Below are positions 4,230 to 47,686 of a DNA stretch of 64,000 nucleotides, in pieces. How positions within the stretch are numbered: the stretch's first letter is position 1; every line of letters begins with the position of its first letter. The stretch is taken from assembly GCA_021848545.1 (NCBI GenBank), contig JAJZUL010000005.1, forward strand, positions 1-64,000, given 5' to 3'. Position numbers and translations under genes: made by a program. The DNA comes from Pseudomonadota bacterium. GTDB taxonomy: Bacteria; Pseudomonadota; Alphaproteobacteria; Rhodospirillales; Magnetospirillaceae. The notes under the pieces were generated by a model. It saw only the letters and a list, made by a program, of their open reading frames with translations, was not told where the DNA came from and ran no database searches.

Positions 4230-4247
4230 TCAGGAGAGAGAGGGACG

Positions 4248-5186: not shown

Positions 5187-5216
5187 TCCGGCCGGCCGTC
5201 TTCCGGGAGTTCGCCG

Positions 5217-15529: not shown

Positions 15530-15535
15530 TGAATA

Positions 15536-16354: not shown

Positions 16355-16502
16355 TCTGTGCTCGCCTCCACGGTAACGGTTGCCAGGGTACGACGCTCCA
16401 CGCGCTCCTGATCCACGAGCGTTCATCATTCCGTGCGGAGGCCGATCTTCCGCATTCCCATTCAGGAACGGATGGGGCTTGCGCTGCGGACGCCCCCCTT
16501 CA

Positions 16503-16644
16503 GAGCCCGACCCGAAACTCGCCAGGGTGAGCCGAAAATGGCGGTTTTCGAGAACCGCAGCGGAGCGTACTTTATGTACGTGAGCAGCGGAAGCGCAGAA
16601 AACCGCCATTTGCAGGCCGCCACGGCGATTTTCGGGTCGGGCTC
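16503..16644. repeat. MITE-like palindromic repeat, complete 142-bp copy, inverted
   Basis: It is the reverse complement of the 15388-15529 copy with few differences and starts GAGCCCGACCCGAAACTCG. The flanking triplets are TCA at 16500-16502 and 16645-16647. The right-hand TCA is the TGA stop codon of phaC on the minus strand, so the element appears to have inserted at the stop codon and duplicated it. Confidence 0.9.
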
Positions 16645-27018: not shown

Positions 27019-27094
27019 GTCCCCATCGTCTAGAGGCCTAGGACACCGCCCTTTCACGGCGGCGACACGAGTTCGAATCTCGTTGGGGACGCCA
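27019..27094 (+). tRNA. tRNA-Glu (anticodon UUC)
   Basis: The acceptor stem pairs GTCCCCA with TGGGGAC, the anticodon loop is CTTTCAC giving anticodon UUC, and the T arm ACGAGTTCGAATCTCGT is standard. CCA is encoded at 27092-27094. The 3' half, from just before the anticodon loop, is the left attachment site of the integrated element. Confidence 0.95.
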
Positions 27095-27098
27095 ACCG
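27048..27098 (+). repeat. attL, 51-bp direct repeat inside tRNA-Glu
   Basis: The 51 bases from GCCCTTTCACGG to GACGCCAACCG are repeated exactly at 40679-40729. The repeat covers the anticodon arm, T arm and 3' end of the tRNA, typical of tyrosine-recombinase integration that restores the tRNA. Confidence 0.95.
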
Positions 27099-28342: not shown

Positions 28343-28624
28343 TTATCGACAGTAGGTGTAGTAATTGCCGTAGGACATCCGGGCGGCACCCCGTCGCGTT
28401 CCGGTCGTGGTCGGCCGGGCGCGAAACTCCGCGATGATCTTCTGGACTTCCTGCACCACCGGGTCCGCCTTGATCTCGGCCCAGGCGGCGCGTAGGGCGC
28501 TGGCGAGGTACTGGCGGGCCTTGCCTCCGAACACCAGGGCACCCTTACGGGCCATCCGCCACGCGTCGCGCATGGCGAGGCTGGCGTTGCGGGTGGCGAA
28601 GGTGGATTTCCGGGTGGTGGTCAT
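28343..28624 (-). CDS. small basic element protein, unknown
   Basis: A 93-residue, Arg- and Ala-rich protein (pI clearly basic by eye), so nucleic-acid binding is possible. AAGGA precedes the ATG at 28624. It is the first gene of the short leftward operon and is divergent from the XRE regulator; the 94-bp gap holds the repeated GTACAC operators, so it is likely controlled by that regulator. Confidence 0.55.
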   Translation of the reverse strand: MTTTRKSTFATRNASLAMRDAWRMARKGALVFGGKARQYLASALRAAWAEIKADPVVQEVQKIIAEFRARPTTTGTRRGAARMSYGNYYTYCR

Positions 28625-28650: not shown

Positions 28651-28717
28651 GGTACACTGTACACATGAAAACGGATGATGTCAATGCCGTGTCAACGCGT
28701 ATATGGACGGTGTACAC
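28651..28717. promoter_or_regulatory. divergent control region with two GTGTACAC-type palindromes
   Basis: The first site contains GTACACTGTAC, a perfect inverted repeat; the second is GTGTACAC immediately before the XRE start codon. TGTACACATGA followed by an A/T-rich base and AACG occurs at both. The sites lie between divergent genes, as expected for an autoregulating phage-type repressor. Confidence 0.55.
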
Positions 28718-28721
28718 ATGA
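28665..28721 (+). CDS. possible 18-residue leader peptide overlapping the XRE gene
   Basis: ATG at 28665 opens an 18-codon frame (MKTDDVNAVSTRIWTVYT) whose TGA stop overlaps the XRE start codon as ATGA. The overlap would allow translational coupling. No clear ribosome binding site precedes it, so it may be fortuitous. Confidence 0.3.
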   Translation: MKTDDVNAVSTRIWTVYT

Positions 28722-28969
28722 TAACGAGGGAGCAGGTGAAGATGGCGCGCGCCGCGCTGGGGTGGGGAGTCCGCGATCTTGCGGAAAAGGCTGGGACGAC
28801 GGCCAACACGGTGAGCCGTTTTGAGAACGGCGCCGACGCCCTCGGCGGCACGCTGTCCAAGATCGAGGCGACGTTGACCGCCGCCGGCATCGTGTTCATC
28901 CCGGCCGGGAGCTACCAGGGCGACGGCGGGCCTGGGGTGCGGCTGAGGGGAGCGGGCGAGGGCGGTTAA
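28718..28969 (+). CDS. XRE-family helix-turn-helix regulator
   Basis: An 83-residue protein from the ATG at 28718. Residues about 3-55 are a Cro/CI-type HTH: VKMARAALGWGVRDLAEKAG, then TTANTVSRFENGAD as the recognition helix. It probably represses the divergent small-gene operon and itself through the GTGTACAC sites. The stop overlaps the next start (TAATG), so it is in an operon with the acetyltransferase gene. Confidence 0.8.
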   Translation: MITREQVKMARAALGWGVRDLAEKAGTTANTVSRFENGADALGGTLSKIEATLTAAGIVFIPAGSYQGDGGPGVRLRGAGEGG

Positions 28970-29493
28970 TGCCTGGAAAACACCACGCGGAGGCCCGATA
29001 TCGGGAATTGCGGGCGCTGGCCCACCGGAAGGCCGCTTCGCTGTTGCCGTCCGATCCTCACGTCCGGATTCGGGATATCGACTGCGGCGCCCTGGAGGCG
29101 TTCGCCGCGACATGGGCCGGACATCCGGTGCGGGCGGTCGCGTGGCCCTGGCCGGAAATCGCCCAGCGCTTCCGGCGCAACTACCCGGAGCGGTTCGAGG
29201 CGGCCATATGGTCGGGGGAGTGGCTGTGCGGGCTCGCCATCGGCCGGCCGAATAACGCGGGCGACATGGTGGCCCTGCACTTCCTGGAGGGATGTCCGGA
29301 TGTCGGCCATCCCCTCAAAGGGTCCGTCCATCAGGCGGCGCTGGAAGCGCTGTTCGCCTATGCCCTGGCGATCAGCGCCACCCGCATCCGCATCAACGAT
29401 CCGCTGCCCGGTGCCGTCCGGCTCTATGTCGCCTTGGGGTTTCGGCTTGAAATACCGAAGTCCGGCGGCTCATACTGCGAGAAGGAGATATGA
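28969..29493 (+). CDS. GNAT-like acetyltransferase of the mobile element
   Basis: A 174-residue protein. WSGEWLCGLAIGRPNNAGDM and VALHFLEGCPD look like the central GNAT strands, and AVRLYVALGFRLEIPKSGG is the typical end of the fold (A-x-LY-x-x-LGF). The canonical Q/RxxGxG/A acetyl-CoA loop is not plain, so the match is partial. Its place between a phage regulator and a small gene, with overlaps on both sides, suggests a host- or phage-directed accessory role. Confidence 0.6.
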   Translation: MPGKHHAEARYRELRALAHRKAASLLPSDPHVRIRDIDCGALEAFAATWAGHPVRAVAWPWPEIAQRFRRNYPERFEAAIWSGEWLCGLAIGRPNNAGDMVALHFLEGCPDVGHPLKGSVHQAALEALFAYALAISATRIRINDPLPGAVRLYVALGFRLEIPKSGGSYCEKEI

Positions 29494-30029: not shown

Positions 30030-30521
30030 TCAATCCGTCTCGTCGGGGATGCCGAGGCGCCCAAGGTGGATGTCCTCGCCCACCAGGGCCATGGCGATGC
30101 GCTCGCCCACGATTTCGGCCACCCGGTCGGCCTTCTCGAACGCGGCGGCACCCAGGACCGATCGCGGCGGCTGGTGGATGGTACCGGCTTCGAAATAGAC
30201 CATGGCCTGATCGTCGGACCCGACATTGGCTTTGCTGTCGCCGACCCGCCGGCCGATGGAATCGCGCATGGTGCCGTCGCGCAGGCCCGGCTCGTCCGCT
30301 GGATAGCCCTGCCGTTCCCGATCTGCTTGCGTTGATGGTGCCAGCGCGGCCCAGGCGGCGAACGGCCCCGCCGCGTCCTGATAGTCGCCGATCTTGGCCT
30401 TCGCTGTCTTCTCGACCAGCTTGGCGGCGCGGTCCAAGGCCACATGCTGGGCTTCGTGCTGGGCAACGGCAACTTCGGCCAGGTGAACGGCGAAATCGCC
30501 AAAGCTGGTGAAGGTTTTCAC
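30030..30521 (-). CDS. HK97 gp10-like / virion morphogenesis tail protein
   Basis: A 163-residue protein. The long first helix ending RAAKLVEKTAKAKIG and the later GTMRDSIGRRVG, VYFEAGTIHQPPRSVLGAAA and ADRVAEIVGERIAMAL match the layout of HK97 gp10-like or Mu gpG-like tail completion proteins: a membrane-free helix, a substrate-like loop with Pro-Pro-Arg, then a C-terminal helix. It is immediately downstream of the frameshifted chaperone gene. The fold assignment is by eye. Confidence 0.6.
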   Translation of the reverse strand: MKTFTSFGDFAVHLAEVAVAQHEAQHVALDRAAKLVEKTAKAKIGDYQDAAGPFAAWAALAPSTQADRERQGYPADEPGLRDGTMRDSIGRRVGDSKANVGSDDQAMVYFEAGTIHQPPRSVLGAAAFEKADRVAEIVGERIAMALVGEDIHLGRLGIPDETD

Positions 30522-30566: not shown

Positions 30567-30734
30567 CTACTTTCGCTCTCGCCAAGTCATCCGGCCCCAA
30601 TCCCATTCGCCCCCATCCATCTGTCCGAAGATGATGCTGAAGGCCAGGACATCAGCCGGCGACAGGCTGAGCGCGACATCAAACGGGACACCGTTCTTGA
30701 CCAGGTACAAGGCCCCGGTCAGCCCGGCGTCCAT
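30567..30734 (-). CDS. -1 frame extension of the tail-assembly chaperone (GT-like part)
   Basis: A 55-codon frame starting MDAGLTGALYLVKNGVPFD and ending MTWRERK. It is open from the slippery site of the gene before it. A -1 slip on A AAA AAC would add R-V and this sequence to the chaperone, giving a long form as in lambda gpG-T. The zero-frame stop and this ATG also overlap as TGATG, so reinitiation is an alternative. NGVPFDVALSLSPADVLAFS fits the small helical second part of such proteins. Confidence 0.7.
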   Translation of the reverse strand: MDAGLTGALYLVKNGVPFDVALSLSPADVLAFSIIFGQMDGGEWDWGRMTWRERK

Positions 30735-31105
30735 CACCCGTTTTTTACCGCGTCCGCGTCGATCTCGGCCGGCGCGAAGTGTTCGGCGATGCCCTTCGCA
30801 ACGGCGGCAAGGCCGTCGTCGTCCAGCATCTGAATCATGGCCTCAAGCTGGCGGCGGGTGGTGGGGCGGCTGAACGCATCGCCATCGACGTTGACGACGT
30901 GGAAGGCCAGCGTCGCGTAGCCGAGAAAGGCTTCGTTCTTCGCATTATCACCCCCGATCACTTCGAACATGCGAAGGCGATCCAGGGCGTTCATGCGCTT
31001 GATGCCGATCATCCGGCCTTTGTCGTCGGTGACGGTGGCGGCCGTGTTCGCGGCGTTGACGATGGTGGCCGAAGGGGTTTCGGGGTTCAGGTTCAGCGTG
31101 GTCAT
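30734..31105 (-). CDS. phage tail-assembly chaperone, short form
   Basis: A 123-residue protein from the ATG at 31105, which has GGAGA 7 bases upstream. An in-frame ATG at 31186 overlaps the tape-measure stop as ATGA and would give 150 residues, so the start is not settled. IKRMNALDRLRMFEVIGGDN and RQLEAMIQMLDDDGLAAVAK suit the helical gpG-like chaperones that coat the tape measure during tail assembly. The gene ends at a slippery heptamer 3 bases before the GGG-TGA stop. It is encoded after the tape measure rather than before it, which is unusual. Confidence 0.7.
   Translation of the reverse strand: MTTLNLNPETPSATIVNAANTAATVTDDKGRMIGIKRMNALDRLRMFEVIGGDNAKNEAFLGYATLAFHVVNVDGDAFSRPTTRRQLEAMIQMLDDDGLAAVAKGIAEHFAPAEIDADAVKNG
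30740..30746 (-). other. programmed -1 frameshift slippery heptamer A AAA AAC
   Basis: Read on the minus strand the zero-frame codons are GTA AAA AAC GGG TGA, so the heptamer is in the X XXY YYZ register needed for tandem -1 slippage. The -1 frame then stays open for 55 more codons. Position and products match the G/GT switch of long-tailed phages. Confidence 0.75.
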
Positions 31106-31185
31106 ACTTTGATCTCCGGGGCCGGGATTGGAACCCGCCGACAGGCCCGAGGCCGGCGGGGTATTGGATTCGGTGGTGGTGGTCA

Positions 31186-33120
31186 TCAGCGGCCCACCGG
31201 AAGCTGTACAGGCGACAGAGCGGCGCGACCGTCATGCCAACCGGGGCCGGTCGGCGGCGAGGACGCGGCGTGCGCCTGGTGCCGGGTCACGATCTCGGCA
31301 ACTTCGCGGCCGTCCATGTGATGGTGGGTGTGCACATGGATTTCGTGGGCGGCCGGAGGCGGCGGCATTGACCACCGCAGGCCGGGCATGCCGTCGGGCG
31401 TGGTGAAGGATTTCGCGGACGGTCCCGGATGGGCGGCCATCCATGCGGCGGCGGCGGGGGCGATAGCGGGGTGACCGGCGCCGGAGGACTTCAGGTAGGC
31501 GCTCAAGCCGCCATGGACGCCGTGGGCTTTCAGATACGTGTCCAAGCCGTGTTGTTCGCCCTTGTTGACCTTGGGCGCGTCGCCGATGGCGGCGGCGATT
31601 ATTGCGAGGGGACCGAGGATCACGGAGAGGCGGCCAAGGCCGCTGGCCAGGACGCCGATGTTCGCCGCCGTGGTGCCGATCTCGGCGCCCGACAGAACGT
31701 CCATTGCGAGGGCCAGACCCTTGAAGGCTGTGGCGACGGCGAGGACCGTGCCACCGATGGCCATGGCCGCGCTCAGGCCGGCGAAACCGTCGATGAGCCA
31801 TTCGAACCGGATGGGATGCCGCCGCGCCCACCGGGCGAGGTCCGACAGATCCGTGGTCAAATCCTGAATCCACGGAATGACGATCGGCAGCACCTGAAGG
31901 CCGATGACCGTCTCCAGCTTTTTCCATTGGGCGGCGGCAGCGGCGAATTGCGTCTCGGGATCGTGCGCGATGGTTTGCGCGTATGCCTTCCCATACGGCA
32001 TCGCGGTTTTGATGTTATGCGCGTCCCGCAGGATCAGCGCGTGTTTGACGGCCATTTCACCCAGGAACGCGGCGCCCAACTGATTGCCGCGGGCGATCTG
32101 ATTGATGATGGCAAGCACCTGGGATTCCGAGGCGTGCGGGTAGGCCTTCTTGATCGCCGGGACCAAGTATTTGCTCACCCAGGCGAACGGGTTTTCGGCG
32201 TAGAGGGAAGCGCCGCGCATCGGCGAAACGACCGTCCCTCTGGTCGTCGTCGGCAGGAATGAATTGGACTGCAACAGCCCGAGGTGTTCGAGCAGCGGCA
32301 TCGATTTCTTGTTGATGAGCCCCTGCACCACCATCCGGTAGCCGGCGGCCAGCATCGGGCCGACGCCACGCGAGCCGCCGCCCCCGCCATGTTCACTGGC
32401 ATATTCGAGCATGAAGCTGGGCAGGATGCGGTACTTGAATTCGTCCGACAGGCCGTAGCGGGCCTGACGGGAATATTGGAATACCTGCTGGAACATGGCC
32501 GGCGTCACCCGATTCTGGGTGGCCGCGATGACCTGGGACATCATCGATGCCTGTTTCGCGAACTCGGCGGGGGAGCGGGTGCCGCCGACGATGTCAATGG
32601 CCTTGGCAATCGCGAACGCCATATCCTCTGGGTGCTGGCGGATTGTCTTGTCGGTGGAGGCGGCCAGCACCGTGCCAAGCTTCAAGATGGTCGGCAGAAA
32701 CTGGATAGCTTCCTTCATGCTGCCCGGATGGCTTTTGCCGCCCATGGTGTTGCGGAGGTCGATCAGCGCGGCCAAATTGCCGGTGGGTGTGCTGGTGATG
32801 ATGTCCCGCGAGGTTTTCCAGGCCGCCGCCGTCGCCTCGGCGATCTGGCGATGCGTCAGCCCCAGCATGACCATCTTGTTGAGGACATGCGCGTATTCGC
32901 GGGCGGCGCCGAGGGTGTGCTTCAGAGCGTCCAGCCCCGCGTATCCGGCAGCGCCCAAGGCGATGGCTGCGCCTCCCATGATCTTGATGTCGCGGAGGGT
33001 GCTCTTGAGCTTCTTGGCCTCCGCGTCCGTCCTCACGAAATCCACAGCGAGGCCGCGAAGGGCGCCCGAAACCTTGTTTTTCAGCGCGATTTCGATGCCG
33101 ATTTTATACGCGTCCATCAT
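31186..33120 (-). CDS. phage tail tape measure protein
   Basis: A 644-residue, Ala/Gly-rich, largely helical protein. The start IGIEIALKNKVSGALRGLAVD is typical of tape measure proteins. About residues 35-200 correspond to the TP901-type core with repeated helices, and hydrophobic stretches near 445-500 (GLSAAMAIGGTVLAVATAF, LGPLAIIAAAIG) could insert in the membrane. The C-terminus has a His-rich HVHTHHHMDG segment. In phages this protein sets tail length. At 644 residues the tail would be about 90-100 nm by the usual 1.5 A per residue rule, which is a rough inference. It starts inside the upstream stop. Confidence 0.8.
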   Translation of the reverse strand: MMDAYKIGIEIALKNKVSGALRGLAVDFVRTDAEAKKLKSTLRDIKIMGGAAIALGAAGYAGLDALKHTLGAAREYAHVLNKMVMLGLTHRQIAEATAAAWKTSRDIITSTPTGNLAALIDLRNTMGGKSHPGSMKEAIQFLPTILKLGTVLAASTDKTIRQHPEDMAFAIAKAIDIVGGTRSPAEFAKQASMMSQVIAATQNRVTPAMFQQVFQYSRQARYGLSDEFKYRILPSFMLEYASEHGGGGGSRGVGPMLAAGYRMVVQGLINKKSMPLLEHLGLLQSNSFLPTTTRGTVVSPMRGASLYAENPFAWVSKYLVPAIKKAYPHASESQVLAIINQIARGNQLGAAFLGEMAVKHALILRDAHNIKTAMPYGKAYAQTIAHDPETQFAAAAAQWKKLETVIGLQVLPIVIPWIQDLTTDLSDLARWARRHPIRFEWLIDGFAGLSAAMAIGGTVLAVATAFKGLALAMDVLSGAEIGTTAANIGVLASGLGRLSVILGPLAIIAAAIGDAPKVNKGEQHGLDTYLKAHGVHGGLSAYLKSSGAGHPAIAPAAAAWMAAHPGPSAKSFTTPDGMPGLRWSMPPPPAAHEIHVHTHHHMDGREVAEIVTRHQAHAASSPPTGPGWHDGRAALSPVQLPVGR

Positions 33121-33536
33121 TCAGCCTCCCCGCTACGGAAGCCCGGCCACGGGGCGGCGATGATGCGAGGCTTCGCTTGGCTGGCGGCCATGACGACGGG
33201 GAACAGCGCTTCGGCTCGCCGGATGGTTTCCGGTGACGGACACGGCAGGATCATCGCTGCAGCGGCTTGCTGCATTTCCGGAGTCGGGCGGCCCTTCGCG
33301 GCATCGAGAATCGGCATCAGCGCGGCCAGCGTCTCGCGGGCGGCCACGCGGGAGAGGATGCCGTTCGCCATCAGGGCAGCGGCGTTGCGGTCCAGGGTCG
33401 CGGTGCCAATGCCCCGCCAATCGCGCCCTGAGGCATGCCACGGCGTCGAAACGGGGTTGGGGGGCACCAGCATACCAGCCGAAGCCTTCCCGCCCTCAGC
33501 GGGCTTATTTTCGCTGTTTGTGCATGATTTGCTCAT
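33117..33536 (-). CDS. element protein of unknown function
   Basis: A 139-residue protein starting MSKSCTNSENKPAEGG. The C-terminal half (ALMPILDAAKGRPTPEMQQA, ETIRRAEALFPVVMAASQAK) is helical. It ends in the tape measure start codons, so it is co-translated. The position resembles that of small tail proteins, but nothing identifies it. Confidence 0.55.
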   Translation of the reverse strand: MSKSCTNSENKPAEGGKASAGMLVPPNPVSTPWHASGRDWRGIGTATLDRNAAALMANGILSRVAARETLAALMPILDAAKGRPTPEMQQAAAAMILPCPSPETIRRAEALFPVVMAASQAKPRIIAAPWPGFRSGEAE

Positions 33537-33552
33537 GGTCTGTTTCTTCCCT

Positions 33553-34071
33553 TCAATCCGTGATCCGGCCGCCGGCCTTGATGTGGGCCATGCGGGCATC
33601 CGTAGGCAGCCGGTCGAAGGCGGCACGGCTCAGGGTGTTGCTGTTGGCCGGTGCGCCTCCGGTCGGGCTGGTGGTGGTCGCGGTGCTGGCCTTGGCGTTC
33701 GCCAACCGGGCCGACAATTCGGGATGTCGGCTCGCCAGCATTTCCAGGGCTTCATCCGGCATCGCGTATTCGCCAGGGTGCTTCCGGCTGAACAGCGGGC
33801 GGCCGTCCGCGTCATGGGCGATCAGTGCACCCCGCTCGATTCGAAATGCGCTCCCGAAGGCGGCGTTCACCATATCGGCCGGTAAGCCCAACCGGGCGGT
33901 TACCGGGGATTGCGCGATGGCGATCGCGGCCGGAACGGCGGCCTCGGCCTTGGCAAGTCGGGCGGTCAGGTCGGCGGCGTCGAAGGTGACTTCCTTGCCG
34001 GCATCGGTCGTGTAGATCGGCATGCCATCGCGGAGGATGGCGTGGCCTTCGGTGTCGAGTTTCAAGCGCAT
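33553..34071 (-). CDS. phage protein, DUF6651/scaffold-like
   Basis: A 172-residue protein. MRLKLDTEGHAILRDGMPIY and DAGKEVTFDAADLTARLAKA resemble phage proteins annotated DUF6651 that sit near capsid genes and look like scaffolds: a short N-terminal beta part, a coiled helix, and a flexible C-terminus. No capsid gene accompanies it here. The resemblance is from memory and needs a profile search. Confidence 0.45.
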   Translation of the reverse strand: MRLKLDTEGHAILRDGMPIYTTDAGKEVTFDAADLTARLAKAEAAVPAAIAIAQSPVTARLGLPADMVNAAFGSAFRIERGALIAHDADGRPLFSRKHPGEYAMPDEALEMLASRHPELSARLANAKASTATTTSPTGGAPANSNTLSRAAFDRLPTDARMAHIKAGGRITD

Positions 34072-34346
34072 TGGTCGGGTTCCTTTTCGGTGGGTTCGAT
34101 GTCGGGCAGGAAAATCGCCAGGCGGATCGGGCCGGCCTGGTCGTTCAAGGTGGCGAGCATCCGTTCGCGGAAATCGGCTTCGGTTTCGTCGGCCTCACGG
34201 TGGAAGCGGTGTTGGCCAACCTCAGCGGTGGTGATGGGGGCGTCCTCGCCGACGGGGCGGATGGAAACCACCAAGCCGGTGGACGCCGCTTTGGCGATGG
34301 CTCGCTCGACCCGGAGGACGCGGTTCAGGACGGCTTTCATGGTCAT
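34062..34346 (-). CDS. small element protein, unknown
   Basis: A 94-residue protein beginning MTMKAVLNRVLRVERAIAKA. It overlaps its upstream neighbour by ATGA and its downstream neighbour by 10 bp, which supports translation. The acidic end (FLPDIEPTEKEPD) and mixed middle give no recognised family. Confidence 0.5.
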   Translation of the reverse strand: MTMKAVLNRVLRVERAIAKAASTGLVVSIRPVGEDAPITTAEVGQHRFHREADETEADFRERMLATLNDQAGPIRLAIFLPDIEPTEKEPDQCA

Positions 34347-34798
34347 TCGTGGGGTTCCTTCTGCGGGGCGGTGTCTTCGAGGGCGGCAAGGCGCGCTTCC
34401 AGTTCGACCGTCTCGATGGCGCGGCGCTGCGTCTCCAACAGACCGGCGACCACAGCGGCTTCATCCGGGCTCAAGGCCCCTTCGGCTGTTGCCGCGACCA
34501 GGGCGGCGATGGCTGCCACCAAGTCGGCAGGGGCCTCGATCTTCGGAATGTCAAACAAAACGGGCGATCCACGGCGAGGCGGCGCGATCCGGTCGAGGAT
34601 CAACTTCGCGGCCTGCATGTCGCCGGCCTTGGCCTGTTCGATCACGGCCCGCACCACGTCGTCGGCGTCGTCCTGCATCAGCTTTTCAGCCAGGATCGTC
34701 ACCCGCGACCGGGTGCCGGGCTTCTTGCCGGGGTTGCCCTTTTCGAACCGGCGGCCGACCGGCGTTTTTGCGGGGCGTTTGCGGGGCGCGTTGGTCAT
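34343..34798 (-). CDS. DUF5681-like phage protein (terminase-small-like N-terminus)
   Basis: A 151-residue protein. The basic start VGRRFEKGNPGKKPGTRSRV matches the KGNPGKPKG motif of DUF5681 proteins, often encoded near phage terminases. The next 60 residues (AEKLMQDDADDVVRAVIEQA, AAKLILDRIAPPRRG) are the usual companion helices. It is overlapped at both ends by neighbouring genes. If it recognises DNA for packaging, it would be the only packaging-related protein in the element. Confidence 0.6.
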   Translation of the reverse strand: MTNAPRKRPAKTPVGRRFEKGNPGKKPGTRSRVTILAEKLMQDDADDVVRAVIEQAKAGDMQAAKLILDRIAPPRRGSPVLFDIPKIEAPADLVAAIAALVAATAEGALSPDEAAVVAGLLETQRRAIETVELEARLAALEDTAPQKEPHE

Positions 34799-35274
34799 TG
34801 GCCGGCCCTCCCTGTGGGGATGGTCTGCCGGTCGAACGCCTGGGCATCGGCCAACCGCTCGAAGGCCAGCAGCAGGACCGCGCCGGCCTGAAGGCTGCTC
34901 GCCAAGGTCGGATCGGCGGTGATGCTGTCCAGGTCATGGCCGGCAAGGATGGGCACCAGGACGGACGCGGCGCCGGGCTGGAAGGCAGCGGCAATGTCGG
35001 CGGTGCCAATCGCCATCAGCGCGACCGGATCAAAGCCGCAGGCAGCACAGATGCCGGCAAGGGTCGTTGGCGGGATATGGGGAGTAACCCCGTCGCCCTG
35101 CACAGGGGCGGAGGGGTTATATCCCCGTAGGGGATATAGGGACACAGAGAGAGCAGACCTTTGTGCATGGTTTATCAATGGGTTATGGGAAACCCTTGGG
35201 CACTTTGTGCGCAGGCGGTTTTTGTGCAGCCCATTCGGGTGGTTTTGGGGTGGGGTGCGTTTGGTTTTAGCCAT
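34795..35274 (-). CDS. element protein of unknown function
   Basis: A 159-residue frame from the ATG at 35274, overlapping the helicase gene by 8 bp. Its first 60 codons are odd in composition and contain a perfect 9-bp hairpin and three TTTGTGC repeats, so the real gene may start later (for instance at a GTG near 35104). The second half (LAGICAACGFDPVALMAIGT, LAGHDLDSITADPT) looks coding. Family unknown. Confidence 0.45.
   Translation of the reverse strand: MAKTKRTPPQNHPNGLHKNRLRTKCPRVSHNPLINHAQRSALSVSLYPLRGYNPSAPVQGDGVTPHIPPTTLAGICAACGFDPVALMAIGTADIAAAFQPGAASVLVPILAGHDLDSITADPTLASSLQAGAVLLLAFERLADAQAFDRQTIPTGRAGQ
35118..35227. promoter_or_regulatory. hairpin plus three TTTGTGC repeats (origin or operator candidate)
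   Basis: TATATCCCC-GTA-GGGGATATA is a perfect inverted repeat at 35118-35138. TTTGTGC occurs in the same direction at 35160, 35204 and 35221. The AT-rich stretch right behind a replication helicase gene would suit an origin with iterons, but three short repeats are weak evidence. Confidence 0.35.
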
Positions 35275-36472
35275 GGTCGCCCCCGCCGATTTCATCAGTG
35301 TTTTCATGCTGTTCCGTAGCCGTTACCGTGCGCCGTATCCCCATTTTCGGGGTCCGGTTGACGTAGTGCCCGACTTCGCCCACTTCGATGGTCCCAGCGG
35401 AGAAGTGGCGCTCCATGGCGCGTTCCAGGTCGTTGAGCTTGAATCCGGCGCACTGGGGCATTCGAAGGAAGGTCTTGGGGGCGTAGGCGCCGCCGTTTTT
35501 GGAGTGCGAGACGTGCCGCCCTTGGCGGGTGGCGGCATCGAGGGCGGCGAGGAAGGCGCTCTCGGCGCAGACCTTGGCGATAGCGGCGGGCACCGGCGAA
35601 CCGTCGCCTTCGGGCAGCACCGGAACGAACCGGCCCTGGTCCCATTTGATGCGCAGTTCGTCGCCGTTCGGGCCGTAATTCGATTTCTTCCCGCGGAGGA
35701 TCAGTGGCGAGTCGCGGTCCTCTTTGTCGCTCTTTTCCAAATAGAGCATGGCGCGGGCGGCGTTGCGGAAGGCCACGTTTCCGGACGTGCCGTCGCCCGA
35801 TTCCATTCCGGATTTGCTGGGGTGCCACAAGACGACGATTGCGCAACCGCTGTCGTAGGCCAGTGACCGAAGCGTTCCCATGAAGTAACGGGCACTCGCC
35901 TGGTCAAGTTGGTTTCCAGGAAAGAAATCGTAGAGTGAGTCTAGAACCACCAGTCCTGGGGCTTCGTCTGTGATCCAGGCCGACATCTGGACCCAGAATT
36001 GACTCGGTTCCCAGCCCGCGCCGTATCCTTCCCCCCTGGCGATGACTGCGTTTTCTGCGCCGGTTCGGTCAAACAGTTCGAGGCCATCCAAATCGGCAAG
36101 GCCCCAGTCCTCGGCCTGGCAAATCGACGCCAGGCGCCGATGAAGCTCAGCGAGGTCATCTTCACAGCTCAAGTAAAACGCTTTCCCCGGCCGGGTGTCG
36201 CGGCCAAGCCATCGCTGGCCTAGGACACTTGCGCAGGCGAGTTGCAAAGCCAGGGTTGATTTCCCAGTGCCGCCATCGCCGCTGAACAGCGTGACCGCCC
36301 GGAATGGGACCAGACCATCTACTGCCCATTCCCGCGCCGGCACGGGCCTGTCCGCCAAGCTCGGCGCGTGTGTGGGCCGGTTCCAAGTGCGCCACGCATC
36401 GGCCGCGCCCTCGACGGAGGGCCGTTGCCGGGCTGCCCGTTCGGCCTGGTCGAGAGGGATAGCGCCGGCCAT
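35267..36472 (-). CDS. RepA-like hexameric replicative helicase (AAA_25)
   Basis: A 401-residue RecA-fold ATPase. Walker A is GDGGTGKS at 65-72, FYLSCEDDLAELHRRLASI is the RepA/AAA_25 Asp-rich motif, PGLVVLDSLYDFF is Walker B, and IVVLWHPSKSG with FRNAARAML are later helicase motifs. RSF1010 RepA-type helicases unwind the origin for element replication. The start overlaps the previous gene by ATGA. Its presence suggests autonomous replication after excision. Confidence 0.8.
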   Translation of the reverse strand: MAGAIPLDQAERAARQRPSVEGAADAWRTWNRPTHAPSLADRPVPAREWAVDGLVPFRAVTLFSGDGGTGKSTLALQLACASVLGQRWLGRDTRPGKAFYLSCEDDLAELHRRLASICQAEDWGLADLDGLELFDRTGAENAVIARGEGYGAGWEPSQFWVQMSAWITDEAPGLVVLDSLYDFFPGNQLDQASARYFMGTLRSLAYDSGCAIVVLWHPSKSGMESGDGTSGNVAFRNAARAMLYLEKSDKEDRDSPLILRGKKSNYGPNGDELRIKWDQGRFVPVLPEGDGSPVPAAIAKVCAESAFLAALDAATRQGRHVSHSKNGGAYAPKTFLRMPQCAGFKLNDLERAMERHFSAGTIEVGEVGHYVNRTPKMGIRRTVTATEQHENTDEIGGGDHG

Positions 36473-37101
36473 CACGCGGCCACCTCCGTCGTATCGGCGC
36501 GGACCAGAATACGGGCGGCCGGCAACTTTGGCGGCTGAAGTGCATTCTTGAGCCGGCGCCCGGTTAACAGATCGTCGGCGACAAATTCGGCATTGCCAAC
36601 CAGGTGCCAGAGCGAGCCCCGCGCCTCGGCCCAATTGACGATCAGCACCCCATGGCCGCCCCGGCTGTCCTCGCCATCCCATTGCGCGGCAGCGGCCCAC
36701 CGGCGTGGATCGGAGAAGACCCGGAGCGGTCGGCTTTCGCCCATGCAACGGCCGGCGATATGAATCGCCCACGCGCCGATCACGTCGGCCACCCCCAGGC
36801 GGGGGATCAATTGGCCGTTGCCCGGGGTCCATGCGATCACGTCGAGCAGATCGGCCCGCCGACCCGGCGCCGGACCATCCCAGGCCGGAATGAGTATGGC
36901 CGGCGTCCCGACGCCCTCACGGTCGGTCGGCTCGTAGGTGCCGTCGCCGGCGCATGCGATTCGCGCCACGCCGCCGCCCAAGCCTTGCAAGACCGCAACC
37001 CTGGGCCACCCCTGCCGCTCACGCCAAGCGCGGGCTTCCGGGGTCTGGGCGCGGCAGATCGCGGCGTCGTATTCGGCCAACAGATCTACGGGGCGGCTCA
37101 T
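36472..37101 (-). CDS. element replication-module protein, possibly Toprim-like
   Basis: A 209-residue protein encoded directly before the helicase and overlapping it. It has alternating strands such as GVGTPAILIPAWDGPAP, LLDVIAWTPGNGQLIPRLG and HGVLIVNWAEA that could be a Toprim or primase-like fold, but no full Toprim acidic set is visible. The context suggests a priming or origin role. I do not recognise the family. Confidence 0.5.
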   Translation of the reverse strand: MSRPVDLLAEYDAAICRAQTPEARAWRERQGWPRVAVLQGLGGGVARIACAGDGTYEPTDREGVGTPAILIPAWDGPAPGRRADLLDVIAWTPGNGQLIPRLGVADVIGAWAIHIAGRCMGESRPLRVFSDPRRWAAAAQWDGEDSRGGHGVLIVNWAEARGSLWHLVGNAEFVADDLLTGRRLKNALQPPKLPAARILVRADTTEVAA

Positions 37102-37328
37102 TGCGCACCCCCAAGACCGGCCAGTTCGACCACCACCCGAGCATGGGGTTCGGTCAGACGGTGACGCTCGGCGACCCGGCGGATGATGCGGGCGGTGACC
37201 AAATCGAGCCGTTGAAAACTGCCGATCTGGCCGTTATCTTCATCGGTGGTGATGATGTTTTCGGTTTCGGCTCTGGCGGTGGCGGCAACCACCCCAGGGC
37301 CTTTTCGTTTGTCTGGCGGCCGCATCAT
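37098..37328 (-). CDS. small element protein, unknown
   Basis: A 76-residue protein (MMRPPDKRKGPGVVAATARA). The C-terminal half, LVTARIIRRVAERHRLTEPH, is a helix-rich stretch that could bind DNA. It overlaps the next gene by ATGA and shares one base with the AlpA-like gene. Confidence 0.5.
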   Translation of the reverse strand: MMRPPDKRKGPGVVAATARAETENIITTDEDNGQIGSFQRLDLVTARIIRRVAERHRLTEPHARVVVELAGLGGAQ

Positions 37329-37531
37329 CAGGCGGCGTCCCGGTGCGCGGAAATGAAGCGGTCGAGGCTCTCGACAAGCACCAAGTGGCGCTTGCCGATA
37401 CGGACCGTTTCAATATGGGGGATTACATCGCGGTAAAACGTCGCCCGGCTGAGGCTGAGATAAGCGGCAGCATCGGCGATCGATGTCAGGGCCGGGCGAC
37501 GGGTGCCGACTTCGGGAGTGCTGGTGTCCAT
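37328..37531 (-). CDS. AlpA/excisionase-like winged-helix protein
   Basis: A 67-residue HTH_17-type protein: SIADAAAYLSLSRATFYRDV is the HTH, followed by the short wing IETVRIGKRHLVLVESLDRF. Small regulators of this type activate integrase or excision and are standard in phage satellites and integrative elements. It heads the replication module. The upstream gap 37532-37658 is AT-rich (runs of CAAAATTTTGGC type) and probably holds its promoter. Confidence 0.75.
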   Translation of the reverse strand: MDTSTPEVGTRRPALTSIADAAAYLSLSRATFYRDVIPHIETVRIGKRHLVLVESLDRFISAHRDAA

Positions 37532-38527: not shown

Positions 38528-38890
38528 TTATTCCGCCGCCGGCAGATGCGGCCCGCTGGTTCCAGTCTTCCGCCGTCCTGCACCTCTGGGCGCCTTGGCC
38601 GGCGCCGATGCTGCGATGGTCATCTTGAGGCCCAGCGCACCCACGACCTTGCGGATGGTTTCGTGCCGGGGGTGCGCACCAGTCGCCAGGGCCTTGTAGA
38701 GGCTTTCCCGGCCCAGGCCCGAGGCTCGGGCAACCTCGGCCATGCCCTTGGCCTTCGCCACGTCGGCCAGCGCCGCGATGAACACGTCCGGGTTGGGGTC
38801 TTCCAGGCAGGCGGCGAGGTATTCGGCCATCATCTCTTCGCTGTCGAGATAATCCGCCGCGTCGAAGGGCGCGATCTTGCCTTGGGTCAT
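38528..38890 (-). CDS. HigA-like antitoxin (addiction module antidote)
   Basis: A 120-residue protein. FDAADYLDSEEMMAEYLAAC and the HTH region GMAEVARASGLGRESLYKAL match the antidote family that pairs with Gp49/HigB-type toxins. Its ATG overlaps the toxin stop, giving the toxin-first order typical of this type II group. It should neutralise the toxin and repress the operon. Confidence 0.8.
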   Translation of the reverse strand: MTQGKIAPFDAADYLDSEEMMAEYLAACLEDPNPDVFIAALADVAKAKGMAEVARASGLGRESLYKALATGAHPRHETIRKVVGALGLKMTIAASAPAKAPRGAGRRKTGTSGPHLPAAE

Positions 38891-39192
38891 GGTTCTTCCT
38901 TCCGCACGTCCTGCGCCAGGGTCTTGGCTCGCTCGATGTCCCGTTTCTGGCTGGATTTGTCGCCGCCGCACAGCAGGACATAGACGACCGATCCGATACG
39001 GGTGAAATAGACCCGGTAGCCGGGGCCGAAATGCACCCGCATTTCGCTCACGCCTTCACCCACCGGCTCGCAATCGCCGAAATTGCCGAGTTCCGCCGAC
39101 TTGATCCGGGCCAGGATTCGCGCTTTGGCCTTCGCGTCCTTGAGGCGGCGAAACCATGTGTCGAAGGCGTCATGGCGAACGAAAGCGAACAT
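38887..39192 (-). CDS. HigB/RelE-superfamily toxin (Gp49-like)
   Basis: A 101-residue protein. FDTWFRRLKDAKAKARILAR, VGEGVSEMRVHFGPGYRVYF and VYVLLCGGDKSSQKRDIERA match the phage-derived Gp49-like HigB toxins, ribosome-dependent mRNA interferases of the RelE fold. It precedes the antitoxin gene with an ATGA overlap. On an integrated element such a pair stabilises maintenance, and may also act on phage. Confidence 0.8.
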   Translation of the reverse strand: MFAFVRHDAFDTWFRRLKDAKAKARILARIKSAELGNFGDCEPVGEGVSEMRVHFGPGYRVYFTRIGSVVYVLLCGGDKSSQKRDIERAKTLAQDVRKEEP

Positions 39193-39240: not shown

Positions 39241-40491
39241 TCACCGCGTCCCCAGCCGCACCACGTTGGCCGGGGTGCTGTCGGTGTCCAGCATCCCAAC
39301 CCGTGCCAGCGCGTCGGCGTGGTGGGCCAATTCCTTGCTGTAGTGCCGCTCGATCATGGCAACGCTGGTGTCATGCTGGACGGCAACGACGCGCACCGGG
39401 ACACCGCGAAGGATGCCCCGGACGATGCTGGAATGCCGCAAGGCGTAGATCGTGATGTCGTCGATGGAGTAGGGGGCGATGTCTTCGGGCGCGAATCCCG
39501 CCGCCACCACGGCGCGGGCGAACGGCCGGGTATGGTCCGATTTCGCCCAGGGTGCGCCGCCGGGCTTCACGATCAAGGGCGCGTCTTTGCCGGCACCTCG
39601 GGCGGTGCCCGCAGCTTCCAGGCGCACGGCCAGCCCGGCGGGCAGCGGAACCGGATAGCGCGGCACCTTCTTCACGCCCTTGCCCTTCTTGCTGGCCGGC
39701 ATCATCAGGCGCGGCTCGGCGCCGGCCTGTAGGTCGCCCACCGTCATGCGGGTGATTTGGGAATACCGGGCGCCAGTGACGGCGGCGATCTCGACCACCA
39801 ACCCGAACGCATCCGAATGGCGGTATGCCGCCTCAATGATCCGCTTCACCGCGTCGTCGCTCAGGACGACGTTGCGGGCCTCTTCGGCATCCGGCAGACC
39901 CGCCAACCCATGCTTCCAGGCGGTGGTGTTGATGATCCGGTGGTTGTGCTTGGCAGCCAGCGACAGCGCCGCCCGGAGCGCATTGGCCGTCCTGTTGACC
40001 GTGGCTGGCGCCAGCTTCGACAACAGCCCATCACGCCAGCGCCGCAGATCGGGCGCGGTCAACTCGGCGACCACCATGCCGGCCAGCTTCTTCGACAGGT
40101 GGTAGCGGAGGCGCTGGACGTTGCCGAGGTCGCCCTTGCGGGCGGTCAGGTCGCGCTCATAGGCATCCACGGCTTCGGCGACGGTCAAGCGGCTGGCCGG
40201 CGACACGTCCGCCGCAGCCTCGGCAGCGACCAGTGCGCGTTGTTGCGCTTGCGACCAGGATAGGACGTGTTCTCCGTCCGGCTCGGCGTAGTCGTCGGCC
40301 TGCCCGATGACCCGCTGTGTCGAGCCACCCTTGCCGTCCGACTTGCGCACGATCCATGTGCCGGCGCTGGCGTTGCGGCGATACCCGACGCTCACGCCGT
40401 CGCCCAGGCTCTCAAAGATCGGCTTCTTCGAGACGGGCAGGGCGAGGCGGCTTTTCTTGACCGCGAGGACGGATGATTTGGCGCGGGCCAT
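39241..40491 (-). CDS. int: tyrosine recombinase integrase
   Basis: A 416-residue phage integrase with an arm-binding N-terminal part, a SAM-like core-binding domain (about 110-200) and a catalytic domain. AAVTGARYSQITRMTVGDLQ holds the first catalytic Arg, IYALRHSSIVRGILRG the H-x-x-R pair, and AMIERHYSKE the nucleophilic Tyr. The ATG at 40491 lies about 190 bp from attR. It should catalyse exchange between the 51-bp att sites in tRNA-Glu. An eroded relative of its C-terminus is at 41965-42056. Confidence 0.9.
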   Translation of the reverse strand: MARAKSSVLAVKKSRLALPVSKKPIFESLGDGVSVGYRRNASAGTWIVRKSDGKGGSTQRVIGQADDYAEPDGEHVLSWSQAQQRALVAAEAAADVSPASRLTVAEAVDAYERDLTARKGDLGNVQRLRYHLSKKLAGMVVAELTAPDLRRWRDGLLSKLAPATVNRTANALRAALSLAAKHNHRIINTTAWKHGLAGLPDAEEARNVVLSDDAVKRIIEAAYRHSDAFGLVVEIAAVTGARYSQITRMTVGDLQAGAEPRLMMPASKKGKGVKKVPRYPVPLPAGLAVRLEAAGTARGAGKDAPLIVKPGGAPWAKSDHTRPFARAVVAAGFAPEDIAPYSIDDITIYALRHSSIVRGILRGVPVRVVAVQHDTSVAMIERHYSKELAHHADALARVGMLDTDSTPANVVRLGTR

Positions 40492-40541
40492 GGTGGCGAA
40501 TCTCCGTTGCCGCTGTGTCAAAGCGGTATCGATTTGGGCGA

Positions 40542-40575
40542 GTGTCCAGTTTGTGTCCAGTCTACGTCCTGAGAC
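40542..40575 (+). repeat. 34-bp subterminal repeat, right copy (integrase arm-site candidate)
   Basis: It matches 27131-27164 with four differences, in the same orientation. It lies between the integrase start and attR, so it may also overlap the integrase promoter. Confidence 0.6.
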
Positions 40576-40678
40576 AGTATGAGACAGCCATGGACGGTCC
40601 GGCAACAGAAATACGCTATTTCAATGGCTTATTCGGATGGCGTTGGGCGGATGTAGACGCCATGAGACGGATGCTTAT

Positions 40679-40729
40679 GCCCTTTCACGGCGGCGACACG
40701 AGTTCGAATCTCGTTGGGGACGCCAACCG
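40679..40729 (+). repeat. attR, 51-bp direct repeat
   Basis: It is identical to 27048-27098. It lacks the D arm and 5' acceptor strand, so it is not a functional tRNA. Flanking bases differ (TAT before, GCACG after), which sets the repeat length. Confidence 0.95.
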
Positions 40730-43438: not shown

Positions 43439-44920
43439 TCAGGCCGCCGTCAGCTTGCGGGGCAGGGGCATCGCGACCATGCGTCCGATATGCTCGACCA
43501 CGGCGGGGCCGAACTTGCGCTCCACCATGGCCAGATAGCCGGGATCGGTGAAGCAGGTGTTCCAGGCCTGGTCGCGAAAGGCCAGGATTTCGGCGGACGA
43601 CAAATGGGCGTTGGGAAGAGGGGTGCAGTCATAGGCATGCTGTGAATACTGGTGCCAGGATTCCGGCAGCGGCATGCCCTCGGCCAGGGCGGAGGCGTAC
43701 AGCTTCGATCCCGGATACGGCATCGCCGAATACAGATTGGCGAATTCGCACTTCAGCTCCAGCGCCAGATCGAGCGTTTCCTGCATCTTCTCGTGGGTAT
43801 CGTCGGGAAGACCGAAAATGTAGTTCCCGATGATGTTGATGTCGGCGGCCTGAATCATCCGAACCGTCGAAACGATATCCGCGCCCCGCAACTTCTTGCT
43901 GGCGCCGTCGCGCACCTCTTCGCTGGCGCTTTCTATCCCTAAGGCCAGCCAGGTGATGCCGGCCCGGCGCATGCGCTCCAGCATGTCCTCTTCGACGGTG
44001 TCGACGCGGGCATAGGCCCAGATGTTGAGATCGTAGCCGCGCTTCTCCAGCAGGTCGCAGATGCCCAAAACATGGGCGCGGTTGAGGACGAACATCTCGT
44101 CGACGATCTTGATGTGGCGGATTCCGTGGCGTTCGACGAGATAATCGATTTCGCCCACCACTTTTTCCGGGCTCCACATCCGGTAGGAGGATTTGCCGAA
44201 GGGCGCGTTGATGCAGCAGAAATTGCAGCTGTAGGGACAGCCCAAACTGGTGTGGATGGAGGCATAGGGGCTGCGGTTGCCGATGTCGTCGAAACAATGC
44301 CAGTTATGCGCCCGGTATTTGTCCATGGGCAGCAGGTCCCAGGCGATTCCGGGCATTTCGGCATCGAGATCGCGGATCAGGGGTTCGGCCGCCAGGGGGG
44401 CGGCGATGCGGCCCTCGTTCCGCCACCACAGGCTGGGGACGGCGCTGAAATCCCCGGCGGCCGCGTCCAGGGCCTCCAGGGTCTTGAGGATGGTCCAGGG
44501 GCCTTCGCGGTCGCAGACGAAATCGACGCTTTCCTCGCGCATGGTGCGCTCGGGCAGGGCCGCCGGATGGGTGCCGGTCATCAGGATGCGGGCGTCGGGG
44601 CGCGCCGCCTTGATCAGCCGGGCGATCTTGCCGCTCGATCCCATGTTCTGGGTGGAGGCCGAGGGCTGGAACCCGTAGACCGGAATGACGATCAGGGTCG
44701 CCCTGAAATCCTCGGTGGCGATGCGGGCCGCCTCCTCGGCGGTGATGCCCAGCGCCGGCACGTCGAGGATGGCGGCGGACCGCCCCTTTCCGCGCAGAAA
44801 CGACGCGAACAGGCCGGCGAAGACCGGGGGCTCGATGGCGCTGAATTCGTCGCCCAGGGATTGATAGACCTGCCTGCGGTCTCCGGGATTGATGAACAGG
44901 GCGTCGATGCGCTCGGCCAT
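43439..44920 (-). CDS. B12-binding-type radical SAM enzyme (paralogue of 10367-11863)
   Basis: A 493-residue protein with an N-terminal cobalamin-binding-like domain and the cluster motif C228-x3-C232-x2-C235 (GCPYSCNFC). It shares with the protein at 10367-11863 the NxGDEFSAIEPPV start, VYGFQPSASTQ, MTGTHPAALPERT, KYRAHNWHCF and the YSQHAYDC end, so both should do closely related chemistry. It is the last gene of a leftward operon after a TIR-like gene (76-bp gap). A DxHxxG motif is not visible. Substrate unknown. Confidence 0.85.
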   Translation of the reverse strand: MAERIDALFINPGDRRQVYQSLGDEFSAIEPPVFAGLFASFLRGKGRSAAILDVPALGITAEEAARIATEDFRATLIVIPVYGFQPSASTQNMGSSGKIARLIKAARPDARILMTGTHPAALPERTMREESVDFVCDREGPWTILKTLEALDAAAGDFSAVPSLWWRNEGRIAAPLAAEPLIRDLDAEMPGIAWDLLPMDKYRAHNWHCFDDIGNRSPYASIHTSLGCPYSCNFCCINAPFGKSSYRMWSPEKVVGEIDYLVERHGIRHIKIVDEMFVLNRAHVLGICDLLEKRGYDLNIWAYARVDTVEEDMLERMRRAGITWLALGIESASEEVRDGASKKLRGADIVSTVRMIQAADINIIGNYIFGLPDDTHEKMQETLDLALELKCEFANLYSAMPYPGSKLYASALAEGMPLPESWHQYSQHAYDCTPLPNAHLSSAEILAFRDQAWNTCFTDPGYLAMVERKFGPAVVEHIGRMVAMPLPRKLTAA

Positions 44921-45433: not shown

Positions 45434-47686
45434 TCAGTGATGCAAAGTGCCTTGCCACCAATATGGTCGTCCCAGACTGCGGATAACGTCGTGCGTTCCC
45501 GGCGTATTGTCGAAGGCCAGGCTTTGGCCGCCATCGGTGAGAACGACGAACTGGTTCAGGGACCGTTTCGGCGGGGACGGCGGGGCGCTATCGGGAAGTC
45601 GGACCCGATCCGCCACATCGGGGGCCAGGGTCGGTTCCGTGGTCATCGCCCGATACTCCATATGGCCCAGCCCGGATTGTACGGCCTGAAAATTTTCGAT
45701 GACCTCTCTTCCCAAGGGGACGCCCGCTTGGTTCAGACCCAGAACCATTCGGCGCATGTGATCGAAACGAACGGTCTTGTCCATGAAAGGATCGACACTG
45801 TACCATAAAGACTGGGGGACACCGAATCTGTATTTCTTGAAGATATCATCTTTGTTGCCGTAAAAATAGATCCCATGTTTTTCTGGAAAATGCCAATACA
45901 CACTATTGTTAACCAATTCGCAGCAATTTATATTATTTATAATGTGGATAATATCCCGATGTTTCGCAATGAATGAAATTGAATTTGTTATATCATCGTC
46001 TGTTTCGCCTGGGGTCCCCGTAACGATGTTTGTGTCCGTACGAATTCCGGCGCGATGACAATCCGTGTAATTGCGAATCACCGTATCAAGAGTATAGCCC
46101 TTGTTTTGCCTGCGAATGGTGTTCTCGGTGAAGGCGTCGGCCCCGAAATTCAGGGCCTGTATGCCTGCTGCACGCATCAATTTAAAAAATTCATAATCGT
46201 ATTCTTTATTGACCCGAATCTGCCCTGAGAAAGACAACTTCAGTCCGCGCCTTACGATTTCCTCGCAGACCTCATGAATGACGGAAGGCTGGCCGCCGAA
46301 GTCGCTGTCACTGGCGCTGAAGGCGCCATTTCGACCGCTGGCGAGTACGGCCTGGAGCTCGTCCACATATTTCTCGGGACTGCGCGAGCGGAAGGAGAAA
46401 CGCTCGGCGCAGAACGAGCAGCGCGACCATACGCAGCCGCGGGTCAAGGGGATGGCTGTGGATTGCTGTCCATTCCATGATCGGTACAGGGCGTTGACGT
46501 CGGGGGTGGCGTCGTAATCGAGCCCGCCGACGATGTCGAGATTGTGGGGGGCCGGGCCGGGTATGAAAGGCTGTTCGGGCGCATCGAACTTCGACGCCAC
46601 GCCCGGCATGTTGGTGGGGCGCTCTCCGCGCGCCAGCGCTTCCACCAGCGGACCCACGACCAAATCGGCTTCACCGACAACCATGTAATCATAGTCCGGG
46701 AAGGCGGCGGCCCCCGTTTCGCGGGTATAGCAACTGTGGCCGCCGATCAGGATCAGCGTATCGGGCCGATCGAGCTTGACCCGCCGGGCGACATGACGGG
46801 TAATCCACTCATTGCGCTGGTGGATCGACATGGCCAGGACTTTGGGCTTCGCGATCAGGATCTGCCGGACGATTTCATCAATATCTTCCGCGAAAAAATC
46901 CAGCAGGAATGGCCACAGGCGAGGATCGACCCAGGCTCGTTCATTGTACCCCCACGCATCGGCCGTCAGTGGGGCGCCGTTGCGCAGGGTCGGGTCGTGT
47001 CCCAGGTCGAACAGCCGGTGAATCTGGAAGCGGTGATAAAGGATGATGCCGGCATCGAAGGTCTGGAACCGCGCCGTGGATCGCTTCAGGGCTTTGTGGA
47101 CATAGGCGACGCTGACGGGAATCTGAAGGCCGGCGGCGCTGGGGAGGTCCAGCAGCAGCACGTCGAGATCGGGGTCGAAGCGAATGTCGGGATAGGGAAA
47201 GGGGTATATGGTGGCTTCTTCGGGGATCCATGCCTGCTCCGGCACCATATCCGGAAGCGTGCGGGCGATGTCCGGCGAGATGATGGCGGCGCCCGGCGGG
47301 ATGTTGCGTTCCAGCCGCCAGCGGGATGCGGTGGCGGCTTCACACACGAACACCACGCTTTCCGCCGGCAGGGCGGAAAAATCGGTGGCGCAGGGTATGT
47401 CCCGGTAGGTGCTTTCGGTCCAGTCCTCGTCAACGATCATGGTGACATGGGGGATCAGGAACGGAGCGTGATCAAGGATAAAATCAAGGAACCTGCCCAT
47501 ATGATAAAGTGTAACTGGGCGTCCTGACCGGGCCAATTCTTGGCAAATTCTATTTATCAGGGCAATTTCGCTGTCTTCACCGGTCAGTGGGAAGCATTTG
47601 TAGGGGCTAAATTTAAGTTTGTCCGCCGAATAACGGGTCTTCTCACCGGTGTCTGCATGGACGATAGTGACTTCTGCTCGCTGCAT
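45434..47686 (-). CDS. B12-binding-type radical SAM enzyme with CX4CX2C cluster motif
   Basis: A 750-residue protein. About 1-170 is an extra N-terminal domain, 175-380 a cobalamin-binding-like domain (LDVLLLDLPSAAGLQIPVSV, LILIGGHSCYTRE, VVGEADLVVGPLVEAL), then the radical SAM barrel. The cluster ligands are C418, C423 and C426 (RGCVWSRCSFC), four residues between the first two instead of the usual three. GTPGETDDDITNSISFI is a later strand. The segment about 45790-46260 is AT-rich. It heads an operon with the TIR-like gene and a second radical SAM gene. Confidence 0.8.
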   Translation of the reverse strand: MQRAEVTIVHADTGEKTRYSADKLKFSPYKCFPLTGEDSEIALINRICQELARSGRPVTLYHMGRFLDFILDHAPFLIPHVTMIVDEDWTESTYRDIPCATDFSALPAESVVFVCEAATASRWRLERNIPPGAAIISPDIARTLPDMVPEQAWIPEEATIYPFPYPDIRFDPDLDVLLLDLPSAAGLQIPVSVAYVHKALKRSTARFQTFDAGIILYHRFQIHRLFDLGHDPTLRNGAPLTADAWGYNERAWVDPRLWPFLLDFFAEDIDEIVRQILIAKPKVLAMSIHQRNEWITRHVARRVKLDRPDTLILIGGHSCYTRETGAAAFPDYDYMVVGEADLVVGPLVEALARGERPTNMPGVASKFDAPEQPFIPGPAPHNLDIVGGLDYDATPDVNALYRSWNGQQSTAIPLTRGCVWSRCSFCAERFSFRSRSPEKYVDELQAVLASGRNGAFSASDSDFGGQPSVIHEVCEEIVRRGLKLSFSGQIRVNKEYDYEFFKLMRAAGIQALNFGADAFTENTIRRQNKGYTLDTVIRNYTDCHRAGIRTDTNIVTGTPGETDDDITNSISFIAKHRDIIHIINNINCCELVNNSVYWHFPEKHGIYFYGNKDDIFKKYRFGVPQSLWYSVDPFMDKTVRFDHMRRMVLGLNQAGVPLGREVIENFQAVQSGLGHMEYRAMTTEPTLAPDVADRVRLPDSAPPSPPKRSLNQFVVLTDGGQSLAFDNTPGTHDVIRSLGRPYWWQGTLHH

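Follow-up and report, generated by a model that had tools for sequence, protein, structure and literature searches.

A conserved −1 frameshift site in the tail assembly chaperone gene of a satellite-like element integrated at tRNA-Glu

The window analysed here, 64,000 nucleotides of a contig from a member of the Magnetospirillaceae (JAJZUL010000005.1), contains a discrete element of 13.6 kb which is integrated at a tRNA-Glu gene (27019-27094) and bounded by perfect 51-bp direct repeats. Leftward from the right repeat it comprises an integrase, a toxin-antitoxin pair, an AlpA-like HTH protein, an AAA_25 ATPase, a DUF5681-like protein, a short DUF6651 protein and a tape measure protein (TMP), followed by the tail chaperone pair G/GT, a tail completion protein and a divergent repressor with small genes. 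The TMP and the chaperone were assigned from weak sequence profiles together with their context.

40679..40729, no strand: attR, identical 51-bp repeat (repeat search)
39241..40605, minus: tyrosine integrase beside the right repeat (phrog_1, 3e-31)
38887..39192, minus: Gp49/HigB-like toxin of the toxin-antitoxin pair (PF05973, 3e-6)
38528..38971, minus: HI1420-type antitoxin (PF21716, 4e-35)
37328..37531, minus: AlpA/excisionase-like HTH_17 protein (PF12728, 6e-6; phrog_66, 0.007)
35267..36832, minus: AAA_25 ATPase, primase/helicase-like, true start probably internal (PF13481, 4e-31; phrog_906, 4e-34)
34343..34798, minus: DUF5681-like protein (Pfam)
34062..34346, minus: protein of no assigned function, 57% identical in a second element (L007)
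33553..34071, minus: short homologue of the putative DUF6651 scaffold, 172 aa (PF20356, 4e-15)
33117..33626, minus: protein of no assigned function, identical in the L007 element
31186..33120, minus: tape measure protein, 644 aa, upstream of G/GT (phrog_28, 3e-6)
30030..30521, minus: tail completion protein of the gpZ / HK97 gp10 / P2 gpS type, 163 aa (phrog_26, 5e-6)
28703..28969, plus: HTH repressor, divergent from the late genes (PF01381, 9e-7)
28343..28624, minus: Phage_Gp111 protein, also in the L007 element (PF07410, 2e-10)
27048..27098, no strand: attL, 51-bp repeat at the 3' end of tRNA-Glu (repeat search)

Among the main open reading frames (ORFs) of the element, Pfam and PHROGs gave no match to a terminase large subunit, portal, capsid, tube, sheath or baseplate protein, which bears out the original prediction that most virion genes are missing. 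The att repeats, the integrase and the ORFs are intact. The Gp49-like/HI1420-type pair (38528-39192) within the element is likely to be stabilising. Next to the repressor, the sequence at 28969-29493 reads as acetyltransferase-like and falls into phrog_4350, a group of unknown function. Outside the element, two adjacent genes (43439-44920 and 45434-47686) have a radical-SAM look from their cysteine motifs.

Four features mark the chaperone gene:

30734..31186, minus: G tail assembly chaperone, zero-frame product, listed at 150 aa (phrog_20383, 6e-27)
30740..30746, minus: slippery heptamer A AAA AAC, in register in 139 of 144 homologues
30732..30734, minus: unconserved ATG across the G stop, a possible reinitiation site (homologue comparison)
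30567..30740, minus: GT extension in the −1 frame, 57 aa (homology and reading frame)

The G ORF ends in ...GTA AAA AAC GGG TGA, with its stop codon at 30736..30734 (−), and the heptamer AAAAAAC at 30746..30740 (−) is split by the G reading frame into A AAA AAC, the register that had been predicted. Past the heptamer the −1 frame is indeed open, down to 30567, with a length of 57 residues rather than the 55 codons first given; it reads RVMDAGLTGALYLVKNGVPFDVALSLSPADVLAFSIIFGQMDGGEWDWGRMTWRERK up to its stop, and the predicted fusion junction is VKN-RVMDAGLTGALYLVKNGVPFDVALSLSPADVLAFSIIFGQMDGGEWDWGRMTWRERK. What had been described as a sensible helical sequence turns out to be conserved as a sequence among the homologues (LV.NGVPFDVAF...). 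The start of G is probably not the gene limit at 31186 that had been proposed but the internal ATG at 31105 (123 aa), since GGAG lies ahead of this codon and homology begins there. Homologues of G sit beside sheath, tube and TMP genes. The solved folds nearest to the G model are the tail assembly chaperone (TAC) of HK97 (2OB9, Z 5.2), YqbN (3KLU, 4.8) and PLE1 ORF19 (5IR0, 3.9), which are modest scores, and Foldseek against TAC folds gave an E-value of 0.27. A search of PDB sequences with the chaperone profile returned no significant match.

The host genome and its family supplied the first homologues. A contractile prophage in the host (L002/L006) has the slip context ATA AAA AAC TGA, a gene 58% identical to that of the window (L008) has GTG GGA AAC GGG TAA, and a more distant gene (L009) has CTA AAA AAC TCC TAA; in each of them a GT homologue lies in the −1 frame. 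A profile made from four fusions (A1) led to 160 loci in GTDB genomes and IMG/VR, while a single-sequence search of IMG/VR with the window chaperone yielded no close relatives. The G/GT arrangement of long-tailed phages that had been proposed for the window is matched by these homologues, 162 out of 164 loci having GT in the −1 frame (the exceptions are L099 and L104). In L104 (2432-2986) the GT part seems to lie in the frame of G past a stop, possibly by readthrough or by an error. After removal of duplicates, 144 distinct homologous genes were available for the heptamer count. A canonical in-register heptamer is present in 139 of them (GGGAAAC 78, AAAAAAC 47, AAAAAAG 9, AAAAAAA 5) and absent from 5; since only 2 of 14,151 upstream codon positions in the same phase of the same genes carry one, the heptamer exceeds chance, with counts that are inflated by kinship among the homologues. 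The type of heptamer differs between clades and the register is constant, so that a general lack of the heptamer in homologues, which would have spoken against the prediction, was not found. A programmed −1 frameshift in the chaperone gene is well supported by this comparison. In addition, dN/dS values of about 0.24 for G and about 0.29 for GT, calculated against the 58% identical element L008, point to purifying selection on both parts, in line with the earlier suggestion that the tail module is under selection. A −1 frameshift is ordinary for a tailed phage, whereas the genomic setting here is out of the ordinary.

The NGVP codons lie at an invariant distance of 51 nt from the heptamer in 135 distinct sequences, and two arms of a putative stem were found downstream of the slip site:

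30726..30732, minus: 5' arm GGACGCC, about 7 nt past the heptamer (same geometry in 135 homologues)
30686..30692, minus: 3' arm GGTGTCC, in the NGVP codons of GT (homologue alignment)

Counted from the start of the heptamer, the arms occupy positions 13-20 and 54-61 and form on average 7.0 of 8 standard pairs, compared with 3.2-4.3 when slid by 1-3 nt. Reshuffling of the partners lowers the mean to 6.48, and 0 of 2000 shuffles reach 7.0; for the 36 sequences whose arms are not of the dominant type the figures are 5.11 pairs and, after shuffling, 4.78 (2/2000). In all these comparisons both arms are coding, and kinship is ignored by the shuffles. Compensatory types of arms occur, namely GGACGCC/GGTGTCC in the window and GGAACCCC/GGGGTTCC or GGGACTCC/GGAGTCCC in others, and the fragment of the window folds with a z-score of −2.85. 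The stem is not universal, with poor pairing in several burkholderial sequences. Taken as comparative evidence for a stimulatory stem-loop in tail-chaperone frameshifting, the aligned homologues make a good but not conclusive case for a conserved structure about 7 nt past the heptamer.

The tape measure protein of the window matches those of Burkholderia phages by tblastn (E 2e-13) and is also matched by the A2 profile. In viral contigs neither this protein nor the TMP of L009 found a match, and the TMP of L008 found one ordinary phage (L182) with the standard gene order. The 163-aa protein encoded after GT is assigned, from sequence and structural model, as a tail completion protein. Its family of 43 members contains PF05069 (Phage_tail_S) in 21 and HK97-gp10_like in 8, and in the SaPI1 neck structure (9MU2) its model fits chain P with a Z of 9.5 (runner-up 3.8; Foldseek probability 1.00). 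The title of this entry (80alpha/SaPI1 neck) names the tail completion protein, which the SaPI1 neck study resolved inside the tail together with DNA and the tape measure protein. A search of PDB sequences with the completion-protein profile gave no significant match.

In typical phages, the related ones included, the tube gene lies upstream of G/GT and the tape measure gene downstream. In the window G/GT adjoins the tape measure and completion genes, with the TMP upstream and no tube gene. The order tape measure, G, completion protein was found only here and in three other elements, L007/L022 (G016:C69), L008/L023 (G016:C14) and L009/L088 (G002:C62), so that the trio as a whole recurs. The related phages in which a tape measure gene is detectable have it downstream of G/GT, the reverse of the window; 56 phage loci show the order G, completion protein, tape measure, and no phage has the TMP upstream. 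One apparent case of a TMP-first phage (L253) was a spurious match of −4 bits. Synteny with tail genes is a usual companion of the frameshift and no defining part of its mechanism. Three of the four known elements are on short contigs of other assemblies. Replication genes differ among three of the four: AAA_25 in the window, a D5-type primase and a helicase in L007, Prim-Pol and DUF3987 in L008.

About 3.4 kb of DNA (window 30626-34026, L007 about 3400-6800) are 100% identical between the window and the L007 element, which lies in the genome of another genus, and both flanks diverge. Such identity across different replication modules suggests recent mobility or exchange of the module; it could be due to exchange or to mis-binning within one sampled community. 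L007 was also considered as a circular contig, and its ends do not overlap. In a quick G/GT tree the window and L023 branch near prophages of planctomycetes (Limnoglobus) and at a distance from L006, the resident contractile prophage, whose G is only 36% identical to that of the window; the tree does not support L006 as the source of the G/GT pair of the element. L009 branches apart from the window, and the TMP-first order may thus not have one origin. The L006 prophage (G000:C64, 8222-18206) carries terminase, portal, DUF6651, capsid, sheath, tube and G/GT genes. It runs to the end of its contig and terminates there in a dispersed repeat, copies of which occur in the window at 132-242, 15422-15530 and 16502-16610. 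On a further contig of this genome (L188, G000:C23, 11952-20000) a tape-measure-like ORF is followed by baseplate-type genes and adjoins a tsaB-like gene; head genes are absent upstream, and the stretch is either the latter half of a prophage or what remains of one reduced to tail genes.

Two further proteins of the element may be concerned with the head. The DUF6651 protein of the window has 172 aa and lacks 80 middle alignment columns of the phage versions, both ends being aligned; the full-length phage matches, 55 in number, cover 231-271 aa each, and none among them is short. In the L006 prophage the neighbours of the DUF6651 gene read as portal on one side and major capsid on the other, where a scaffold gene usually sits; a scaffold role is suggested by this position, and the shortened protein would serve as an alternative internal scaffold. 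The DUF5681-like protein is common to three elements. A homologue was not found in related phages, which speaks against it as the TerS of those phages and leaves its candidate role as a packaging-specificity factor a guess.

We consider that the element is most likely a phage satellite which builds chimeric tails with a frameshift-made G/GT, in the manner of the Vibrio PLEs, and we assign this reading, drawn from gene content and from analogy, a probability of roughly 0.7. An integrase, 51-bp att repeats, a size of 13.6 kb, which is smaller than a phage, and an incomplete set of virion genes are the satellite traits observed. In the proposed course of events the element would excise and replicate via its own primase/helicase-type ATPase, and a contractile-tailed helper phage would package it. 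At A AAA AAC the ribosome would slip back by one base in some passes, aided by the stem-loop, yielding presumably much G and little G-T fusion. The element would supply the tape measure, G/GT and the completion protein, three proteins expected at the tail lumen. G/GT would coat the satellite tape measure and recruit tube subunits of the helper, so that satellite particles would have tails with the tube, sheath and baseplate of the helper and the tape measure of the satellite. An own tape measure in the absence of a tube gene would call for a matching G/GT and a fitting completion protein, which may be why the trio stays together and the rest would come from the helper. A wider version, to which we give even odds, holds that satellites outside Vibrio replace the tape-measure-handling set of the helper and also shrink its capsid by means of an internally deleted scaffold; head and tail would both be rebuilt, and the need of the satellite for a G:GT ratio under its own control would be the reason that the frameshift is kept.

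The genes are phage-derived, and the same genome contains another contractile prophage as well as a tail-gene remnant, so that the element might also be a decaying prophage which has lost its head and most of its tail genes, with three tail genes and the slip site left by accident. However, repeats, integrase and ORFs show no damage, the trio keeps its unusual order in diverged elements with different replication modules, G and GT appear to be under purifying selection, and the internal loss of 80 residues spares both ends of DUF6651; we regard decay as unlikely. Somewhat less probable still is a device of tail interference or defence, in which TMP, G/GT and completion protein would act as decoys that poison the tails of infecting phages and not as parts of own particles. 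Tail assembly is a known target of such systems, as in Tai (PMC11364771) and Rta of PLE11 (PMC12987554), but a full-length tape measure, a chaperone, a completion protein, a frameshift and a short scaffold fit building over blocking, and no PADLOC defence model fits the element, save for weak NsnC matches of the Gp49-like protein. Very improbable is the production of the GT region as a separate protein by stop-start reinitiation at TGATG without any frameshift, for although the ATG of the window (30734..30732, −) overlaps the G stop, a clear Shine-Dalgarno sequence is absent ahead of it, just 3 of 144 homologues have an ATG close to the stop of G in the frame of GT, 100 of the 144 lack a start codon of any kind there, and the heptamer and the stem are what homologues conserve; reinitiation is thus not the conserved mechanism, and may be a side route in the window itself.

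If the satellite reading is true, a second family in other hosts would make the takeover of tail-length control a general satellite strategy, would show which tail proteins must travel together, and would offer a natural system in which to ask why the G:GT ratio of tail chaperones must be fixed. Chimeric tails made by a satellite were demonstrated only in 2026, in one Vibrio family. The frameshift itself is of a known kind, and what appears new is its satellite-like setting with a tape-measure-handling kit.

A conserved −1 frameshift in tail assembly chaperone genes is known from lambda G/GT (reviewed in PMC5009743), with which the window shares a short gene, an X XXY YYZ heptamer at its 3' end and a −1 extension. 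Criteria described for PICIs include a specific att site, exclusive PICI genes and phage-dependent induction (PMC6092414); the element has a tRNA-Glu att site and an AlpA-like gene. Putative tmp genes are also carried by the cf-PICIs (PMC12987554, Extended Data Fig. 10). However, cf-PICIs form their own capsids, while no capsid gene was found in the element by Pfam and PHROGs scans. In SaPIs the alternative internal scaffold CpmB leads to small capsids (PMC10945586). By analogy the element has a candidate of this type which, unlike CpmB, would be an internally shortened homologue of the phage DUF6651 protein. A close parallel is provided by the PLEs of Vibrio cholerae, which encode a TMP, a TAC and a baseplate hub (BhuB) and make chimeric tails, as shown by mass spectrometry and by the loss of transduction upon deletion of tmp (PMC12987554). 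The TMP and the TAC are present in the element and a baseplate hub was not found with Pfam and PHROGs, the likeness being drawn from the published description of the PLEs. A tail completion protein takes the place of the hub as third tail protein, the chaperone is predicted to be frameshifted, a feature unmentioned in the PLE paper (PMC12987554), and the hosts are others. Alike in both are an own tape measure and chaperone, combined in PLEs, and probably here, with structural parts of a helper, and the TAC of PLE1 (5IR0) is among the folds nearest to G of the window.
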